A stretch of DNA of 64,000 nucleotides, taken from NCBI RefSeq assembly GCF_021401125.1, contig NZ_JACBFQ010000012.1, forward strand, positions 1 through 64,000, in the 5' to 3' direction. A program made the position numbers and the translations under genes. The DNA is from Xanthobacter sp. NM-59 (GTDB lineage: Bacteria > Pseudomonadota > Alphaproteobacteria > Rhizobiales > Xanthobacteraceae). The notes under the pieces are model-generated. The model made no database searches. It had not been told where the DNA came from and saw only the letters and a list, made by a program, of their open reading frames with translations. How positions within the stretch are numbered: position 1 is the first letter of the stretch; every line of letters begins with the position of its first letter. Shown here piece by piece: positions 52,393 to 53,720 of this stretch.

Positions 52393-53142
52393 ATGACACC
52401 TCGAACCGTTCGGCTGGCTTTGTTGTCCGGAGTCGCCGTCTGCCTGGCGGGGGCCGCCCTCGCCCAGGGCAGCCCGGCGAAGATCCAGGACCGCCTGCCG
52501 ATGGAGCAATCGGCCAAGTCTGACCGCGCGGTACAGATGGCCGCGCTGGAGGTGCCCTTCGGTGCTCCCCCGCCTGCGGCGCCGGAAGGCCCCCGCTTCG
52601 CGGCCGGCGAGCCGAGATCGCAGGGCCCCGACGCCCGCCGCATGGGTCCTCCGCCCGGGGCCGAGCGCCCGATGGGCCATCCGGGCCGCCGGCCGATGGG
52701 GCCGCCGCCCGGTCCGCGCCCCGACCCGCTCGCCTATGCGCGGGCCCTGGCCGGAGCTGAGGCTGCCATCGGCATCCGCGCCGACCAGCTCGATGCCTGG
52801 CGCGACCTGACCGACGCGCTCCAGGCGAGCGCGCCGCCGCCCGCCCCGTGCCGGCCCCGCCGCCCGGCGCCGGCCTGCCCGCAAGGCACGACGGCCGAAG
52901 GCGGAAATGCCGCCGTGCCGGCTCCCTTCGGCGCCCTGGAGGCGCTTGCCGGGGGGCTGCAGGAACAGGGGCGTGTGGGCGAGCGCATCACGCGGGCCAT
53001 CAGCACCCTGAAGACCAAGCTGACGCCGGAACAGATGGAGCGCCTGGCGCGCATCGAGCCGGCCCTGCTGCCGCCTCCGCCCGGCGGCTTCCCCCCGCCT
53101 CCACCGCCCCCCGGCGGCCCGGGGCCAAGCGAAGAGGATTGA
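52393..53142 (+). CDS. Spy/CpxP-like LTXXQ-motif periplasmic protein
   Basis: 249 residues. A signal peptide (MTPRTVRLALLSGVAVCLAGAALAQ) exports it. After a Pro/Gly/Arg-rich region the folded part is DPLAYARALAGAEAAIGIRADQLDAWRDLTDALQA ... TLKTKLTPEQMERLARIEPAL, with the LTPEQ (LTxxQ) motif of Spy/CpxP chaperones. The C-terminus is nearly pure Pro/Gly. Such proteins bind unfolded periplasmic proteins or metals and repress envelope-stress kinases. ATG 52393 has AAGGG 8 bases ahead. It is divergent from the two-component genes, as cpxP is from cpxRA in E. coli. Its last ~40 bases form the start of the downstream repeat unit. Confidence 0.82.
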   Translation: MTPRTVRLALLSGVAVCLAGAALAQGSPAKIQDRLPMEQSAKSDRAVQMAALEVPFGAPPPAAPEGPRFAAGEPRSQGPDARRMGPPPGAERPMGHPGRRPMGPPPGPRPDPLAYARALAGAEAAIGIRADQLDAWRDLTDALQASAPPPAPCRPRRPAPACPQGTTAEGGNAAVPAPFGALEALAGGLQEQGRVGERITRAISTLKTKLTPEQMERLARIEPALLPPPPGGFPPPPPPPGGPGPSEED

Positions 53143-53720
53143 AGATCGCCCCCAGGCAGGGGGCTTCGGAAAGGAAGGGATTCTCGCCGCCCTGATCGTC
53201 CCTTCCTGATGGCGAGCGTGCTTCGGCGCGCTCGCCATCCATCCCAGGCGCGACAACCATGCGCGCCTGAAACCGCCCCCCGCCCCGGGGGCATGTGTGG
53301 CCAGCGCAGCCAGCCCGCGTCGACGTTTCGGCCCCACCGCCCCCCGGTGGACCGGAACACGACACGCAGGATTGAAATCGCCCCCACGGTGGGGGCCTTG
53401 GGAAGGAAGGGACTCTCGCCGCCCTGAGATCATCCCTTCCCGACGGCGAGCGCGTTCCGGCGCGCTCGCCGCTCCCCCCAGAGCCAAGGCGTTCCGCGTT
53501 AGGATCCGCCTCCGACCCAGAGGCATCCACGGCCAGCGCTGCCGCCCTCTCGCCGCCGACTCGGCCCCACCGCCCCCCGGTGGACCGCAGCGCACGGCGC
53601 AGGGGATTGAAATCGCCCCCACGGTCGGGGGCATCGGAACAGGAAGGGATTCTCGCCGCCCTGATCGTCCCTTCCTAGCAGCGGGTGCGCCTCGGCGCGC
53701 CCGCTGCGCCGTTTTGCGCC
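53101..53720. repeat. Three tandem 233-bp units, each with three stem-loops
   Basis: CCACCGCCCCCCGG marks units at 53101 (inside the Spy-like CDS), 53334 and 53567, two periods of exactly 233 bases; the last unit is cut near 53720. Each unit has H1 GCCCCC/GGGGGC (53148-53164, 53380-53396, 53615-53632), H2 GGAAGGGA/TCCCTTCC (53172-53207, 53405-53440, 53641-53676), and H3, a 10-14-bp stem (53211-53236, 53445-53470, 53678-53707). H3 differs in both arms in the third copy yet still pairs. It lies between the convergent Spy-like and cbbR genes. Whether it is transcribed is unknown. Confidence 0.9.

Follow-up and report, generated by a model that had tools for sequence, protein, structure and literature searches.

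The 3' end of a Spy/CpxP-like gene (spy) in Xanthobacter sp. NM-59 carries a tandem array of three hairpin-bearing units, whose core is a conserved RNA structure with a conserved loop and is linked to spy and to two-component genes. The array lies in a window of 64,000 nucleotides, by which is meant the whole stretch of DNA that was analysed. With a little better than even confidence, we take the array to be a 3'-UTR regulatory RNA of the Spy/CpxP-like gene, which is divergent from an OmpR-type two-component system. Paired bases that have changed together in related species point to an undescribed family of structured, probably regulatory RNAs.

Layout of the array and its genomic setting

The array spans positions 53101–53704 of the window (TRF: period 233, 2.6 copies, 76% matches, 5% indels). 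The anchor CCACCGCCCCCCGG starts at 53101, 53334, and 53567, which gives a spacing of exactly 233 bases twice, while the loop of H2 begins at 53183, 53415, and 53652, a spacing of 232 and 237; the spacer between copies varies more than the core. A search of the own genome with the unit found this one locus, all other matches being short pieces with an E-value of 0.08 or worse. Since 233 cannot be divided evenly by 3, we do not favour a coding repeat.

All features of the array described here are on the plus strand. The first unit starts within the 3' coding end of spy, whose stop codon TGA is at 53140–53142. Its hairpin H1 (53148–53164, GCCCCC/GGGGGC) lies outside the conserved core and is followed by H2 (53173–53206, loop CTCGCCGCCCT, recognized from fold and covariation) and by H3 (53211–53236), which folds with a C(TTCG)G loop and has no T-run after it. 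The second unit opens at 53334–53350, where the 3' coding end of spy is repeated (CCACCGCCCCCCGGTGG); its anchor is found by sequence also at 53101 (unit 1, in spy) and at 53567 (unit 3). It continues with H1 at 53380–53396 and, by fold, with H2 at 53405–53440 and H3 at 53445–53470, again without a T-run. In the third unit H1 is at 53615–53632, and folding places H2 at 53642–53675 and H3, with 13 bp and a CTCG loop, at 53678–53707. Four bases 3' of this last H3 stands a TTTT (53712–53715), a weak terminator tail and the sole TTTT in 53052–53760. An earlier note on this DNA had described a tandem 233-bp array that starts inside the 3' coding end of the Spy-like gene, with H1, H2, and H3 in the same order in each unit and a C(TTCG)G tetraloop in copy 1, and all of this agrees with the coordinates above for all three units. 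It had also described H3 arms that change together, which they do, and a 14-bp H3 stem in unit 3, which is one pair too long.

Two other repeats are present in the window. One is at 41504–41978 (TRF: period 198, 2.4 copies, 78% matches), where ORFs are listed, and the other, at 49751–49792, consists of three perfect tandem copies of the 14-base unit GCTCCCAAGCACCC.

The parent of the 3' element is the Spy/CpxP-like gene at 52387–53142 on the plus strand, delimited by its start and stop codons (the start codon is a predicted one) and assigned by alignment A4 and a weak LTXXQ match. The match of its protein to LTXXQ reaches 20 bits (E 0.0012), under the cut-off of 24.3, and is its only Pfam match; three relatives of the protein have no Pfam match. 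The gene product is probably a cell-envelope stress protein. Divergent from spy, on the minus strand, are the genes of a two-component system. The OmpR-type response regulator (Pfam Response_reg and Trans_reg_C) has a predicted start, and the stretch tested was 51462–52157; the sensor histidine kinase (Pfam HAMP, HisKA, and HATPase) is at 50125–51465, and its relatives lie beside spy homologues.

Covariation and conservation of the core hairpins

The core of each copy is about 75 nt long and consists of H2 (9 bp) and H3 (13 bp, tetraloop). The 11-nt loop of H2, CUCGCCGCCCU, is invariant across 15 aligned copies from the genus. Among the three copies of the window eight H2 pairs are identical and the ninth is T-G, C-A (unpaired), and T-G; since the H2 arms are thus nearly identical, within the window only H3 covaries. 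The main evidence for covariation is strong and comes from relatives rather than from the three window copies.

In the alignment of the 15 genus copies (A1, from which the cut copy L042 was excluded), 99.4% of the pair cells of H2 and H3 are paired, and two-sided changes are seen in nine of the 22 pairs. Four of five measures of covariation are reached by none of 500 shuffles and the fifth, the number of further pair types, by 149 of 500, and the slid-partner control leaves 43–55% paired. Alignment A3 holds 31 copies from three genera. Because it was aligned to the model of the genus copies, its pair counts (99.0% of cells paired, two-sided changes in 22/22 pairs) lean towards the genus structure, with G-U somewhat favoured. 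All five of its measures exceed those of all 500 shuffles, and 42–57% of cells are paired in the slid controls. G-U cells outnumber A-C cells by 15:2 in A1 and, with the lean just described, by 36:3 in A3, an excess that points to RNA of the spy strand as the folding molecule. The covariation in relatives and the bias towards G-U over A-C support the early suggestions of a repeated structured RNA and of selection, not drift, acting on the structure of the RNA or DNA. In a 950-base alignment around the element from eight genus loci, the best-conserved 30-column block (0.92) lies in the element, and the next scores 0.88.

Copy number and reach among relatives

Within Xanthobacter, 11 of 14 genomes match, the own genome included, and ten others thus carry the element. 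Nine of them (L033–L041) have a single copy each, which sits at the stop codon of a spy homologue in eight; growth of the array from the spy end, as had been proposed, fits this placement. In G001, the closest relative by this search, three copies stand ahead of cbbR on one contig (L032), and a further, cut copy follows spy where a second contig ends (L042), which makes at least four. The genomes without an element match are G012 and G013, which also lack any spy match at E ≤ 0.001, and G005, whose best spy match is at a contig end and which has a weaker spy match elsewhere.

In the nine single-copy loci, the element is followed by a LacI-family gene in the same direction. The gene cbbR (53762–54682 in the window) adjoins the array only in the own genome and in G001, so that either the array or its neighbour has moved in one lineage. 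A link to cbbR, named early on as the neighbour of the array, was therefore rejected, and the adjacency is regarded as incidental.

One of the single-copy genomes, G010 (L033), retains the element (INDEPENDENCE from the gene) and has no spy match at E ≤ 0.001. Its element is identical to those of G009 and G002 at 76/76 positions, and the region upstream of spy is kept (79% over 282 bases with G009). Identity is lower beyond the element, at 91% in the lacI stretch that follows and 71% in the 3' flank. An element kept where spy has no match suggests independence of the RNA from spy; the case is suggestive and falls short of proof since the loss of spy is undated. G010 is a natural deletion that is useful for tests.

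The covariance model R1, built from the 15 genus copies, finds tandem copies in two more genera, Azorhizobium (g14), with six copies in G141, five in G026, and three in G069, and Aquabacter (g19), with two each in G031 and G072. Stems in these arrays differ from those of Xanthobacter, and loops differ between the genera. In Azorhizobium the H2 loop stays near UCCCCACCAC, and the stems of neighbouring copies are strongly different. Because the Xanthobacter loop is less C-rich than the loops of other genera, the kinship of the loops across genera is one of position and form, not of sequence.

In the family, R1 matches 22 of 248 genomes at E ≤ 0.01, and the covariance model R2 matches 24 of 296. 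The 16 genomes common to both results comprise 11 of the genus, three of Azorhizobium type, and two of Aquabacter type. The remaining six (R1) and eight (R2) genomes are weak, with best E-values of 6.6e-5 and 8.3e-5; the weak matches in G143 and G561 (L112, L113) were judged by eye to be at the end of a Spy-like gene, and others, such as L088 and L089, were dropped by eye as an H3-type hairpin alone. Among 297 genomes of the order, no R1 match beyond the own genome improves on E 0.0016, and R2 finds only the own genome at E ≤ 0.001 among 385 genomes of the class. The covariance models thus reach three genera, and any wider claim stands on a stem-loop scan.

The scan looks between –10 and +90 of the stop codon for a hairpin with at least nine Watson-Crick pairs and a loop of 9–18 nt that has CCC and at least five C, a rule chosen after inspection of the loci. 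Such a C-rich-loop hairpin is present 3' of spy relatives in 33 of 64 named loci, which are non-independent (21 are Mesorhizobium). These loci also supply 875 background stops, of which 11 have such a hairpin; some of the stops do not belong to genes, because they come from open frames of at least 150 codons in any frame. G-rich loops, as a control in the same ranges, occur in 3/64. An earlier rule (CCC, ≥50% C) gave 18 of 49 best hairpins versus 12 of 259 background hairpins. The divergent response regulator (≥60% identity) is found in 50 of the 64 loci, and the hairpin occurs in 31 of these 50 and in 2 of the 14 others; the 19 divergent-regulator loci without it by the strict test include one from Aquabacter. 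Two loci, L120 and L121, were scored as misses though both show H2.

By genus, loci with the hairpin number 14/21 in Mesorhizobium, 5/7 in Xanthobacter, 4/4 in Inquilinus, 2/2 in Azorhizobium, 2/4 in Kaistia, 1/3 in Aquabacter, and 1/4 in Ancylobacter, and 1/1 each in Faunimonas, Afifella, Ciceribacter, and a record titled Mycobacterium sp. KBS0706. The scan found none in Methyloceanibacter (0/5), Hansschlegelia (0/2), one locus each of Bosea, Ensifer, Methylopila, Rhodomicrobium, and Bartonella, or three MAGs.

Proposed role and known systems

The ends of the copies bear on how the array would be transcribed. In Xanthobacter, a TTT within 20 nt of H3 follows all single copies (9/9) and the last copies of arrays (2/2) and none of the inner copies (0/4); in the window it follows only the last of the three. 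This pattern fits one transcript with a terminal stop, as in CcsR1-4. Aquabacter resembles Xanthobacter in its T-runs, but Azorhizobium departs from the pattern: in its array L084 each of the first five copies has a TTT behind it, and the sixth has none. The earlier idea of a terminator array therefore holds at most in part: the TTT is there after the two last copies and the nine single copies, but not after the other four of the six complete array copies. By consensus scan, no terminator and no sigma-70-like promoter were found on this strand in 52000–54000; like the L084 pattern, this speaks against a single transcript with a terminal stop.

The mechanism we propose is as follows. In each unit H2 would display a loop that stays fixed while the stem changes freely, with the stable GC hairpin H3 after it. 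Under envelope stress, transcription of spy would run on through the array and stop close to the last H3. The mRNA would then be cut into short RNAs by an RNase, for which RNase E is the probable candidate. The H2 loops of these RNAs may base-pair with G-rich sites in target mRNAs, thus forming a non-coding arm of the envelope stress response in which extra copies would raise the dose. These steps, from the spy promoter through processing to loop–mRNA pairing, are inferred from CpxQ, CcsR1-4, and GsrN. A small and crude target search with the loop complement AGGGCGGCGAGA (a 12-mer, at most one mismatch) gave 265 sites in the genome, three in the array and 262 outside it, and 97 for the reversed pattern, an excess that oligonucleotide bias may explain. 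Of 30 sites inspected, the 27 outside the array being drawn from the 262, none is just before a start codon, versus 1 of 29 in the control, a result that also counts against the proposed pairing.

The negative outcome of this crude search is in keeping with another reading, in which the RNA binds protein rather than mRNA. CsrB-type sponges are RNAs that titrate an RNA-binding protein, and the repeated loops could act in this manner, with copy number as capacity. A constant loop on variable stems in tandem copies, invariant over its 11 nt in the 15 genus copies, is what such a sponge could look like; however, nine of the ten other genus genomes have a single copy and could titrate little, the loops vary between genera, and there is no candidate protein, so that we regard protein titration as unlikely. 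A plainer reading would make the array solely the terminator and 3'-end stabilizer of spy mRNA, duplicated by slippage. H3 is terminator-shaped, and the short T-runs after single and last copies agree with it, but the invariant H2 loop and the two-sided changes in H2 are left unexplained. The spy-less G010 with its identical element also speaks against this reading, yet there the element could terminate before lacI. A terminator as the sole role seems to us slightly less likely still.

Duplication could also be neutral, acting on a palindromic region, or the array could be a DNA element of the REP/BIME kind, the former suggested by the ability of slippage to make tandem copies at one locus and by a spacer that differs more between copies than the core does. 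Both are opposed by covariation in excess of the shuffled and slid-partner controls, by the preference for G-U over A-C, and by the occurrence of arrays in three genera. A REP-type element, as once suggested for this array, would be expected in many dispersed copies, and it was rejected because the own genome has one locus. We give this explanation very little credence.

The 3'-UTR regulatory RNA is thus the reading carried forward. A broader version of it, to which we give somewhat less than even confidence, is that a CpxAR/CpxP-like envelope stress system in Hyphomicrobiales (and Inquilinus) includes a non-coding arm with an origin separate from that of enterobacterial CpxQ. This arm would be a hairpin RNA with a C-rich loop in the 3' UTR of spy, amplified to 2–6 copies in three genera (Xanthobacter, Azorhizobium, and Aquabacter); as a stand-alone RNA it could outlive the protein gene. 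If true, two distant bacterial groups would each have a regulatory RNA joined at the 3' end to one kind of envelope stress gene, and whether the design is convergent or very old could be tested. Copy numbers that range naturally from one to six, together with the strain that has the RNA element and no spy match, make dose and independence directly testable.

Hairpins with C-rich loops in 3' UTRs, sometimes in tandem, are already known. The RNA family, its Spy/two-component setting, and the turnover of stems between copies did not appear in the titles and abstract openings searched. Against Rfam, no family matches the array at gathering score, and 15 sub-threshold matches in 53100–53760 (best E 0.45) are taken as chance. 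No family in Rfam 15 matches the element in 18 loci at gathering score either, the sole match there being a tRNA. The only match of the window at gathering score is Bacterial small SRP RNA, at 11965–12063 on the minus strand (56.8 bits).

GsrN of Caulobacter is not known as a tandem 3'-UTR element. It is described as an sRNA with a gene of its own, mostly close to general stress regulators, and its C-rich 5' loop pairs with the G-rich katG leader (PMC5869019). The C-rich loop is what it has in common with the element.

Nearer in form are RFMSmelA075 and SmelA099 of Rhizobiales, which are linked to cuckoo RNAs. Both are described as hairpins in series in which a C-rich loop stays constant and the stems vary, RFMSmelA075 with several occurrences per genome (PMC3927594). 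CcsR1-4 of Rhodobacter sphaeroides derive from the ccaF1 3' UTR by RNase E processing and have a terminator at the 3' end (PMC8625941, PMC10253847); a figure legend presents them as one transcript with a terminal stop (PMC10253847). What cuckoo RNAs and CcsR share with the element is this series of hairpins whose loop is kept while the stems change. The likeness is clearest in Azorhizobium; in the window itself H2 stems barely vary. Their loop motif CCUCCUCCC is absent from the array; CCTCCTCCC has no match in 53101–53720 and two elsewhere in the window versus 1.3 expected. Both kinds are tandem and 3' of a gene, but the parent is DUF1127 there and Spy-like, with a weak LTXXQ match, here. In addition, H3, the second hairpin here, is without a C-rich loop, and the several occurrences of RFMSmelA075 per genome contrast with the single locus of the own genome.

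In its setting, the element resembles CpxQ of Enterobacteriales, which comes from the 3' UTR of cpxP, a gene under a two-component regulator, and is more conserved than the rest of that gene (PMC9438474). CpxQ pairs with membrane-protein mRNAs in an Hfq-dependent manner; for the element, processing and Hfq binding would be putative, and no Rfam family reached its gathering score. In both cases the RNA is at the 3' end of a gene, of the CpxP type in Enterobacteriales and putatively so here. Here the divergent histidine kinase and response regulator are clear, regulation by them is putative, the parent protein matches LTXXQ weakly, and, in contrast to CpxQ, the element occurs in tandem copies.
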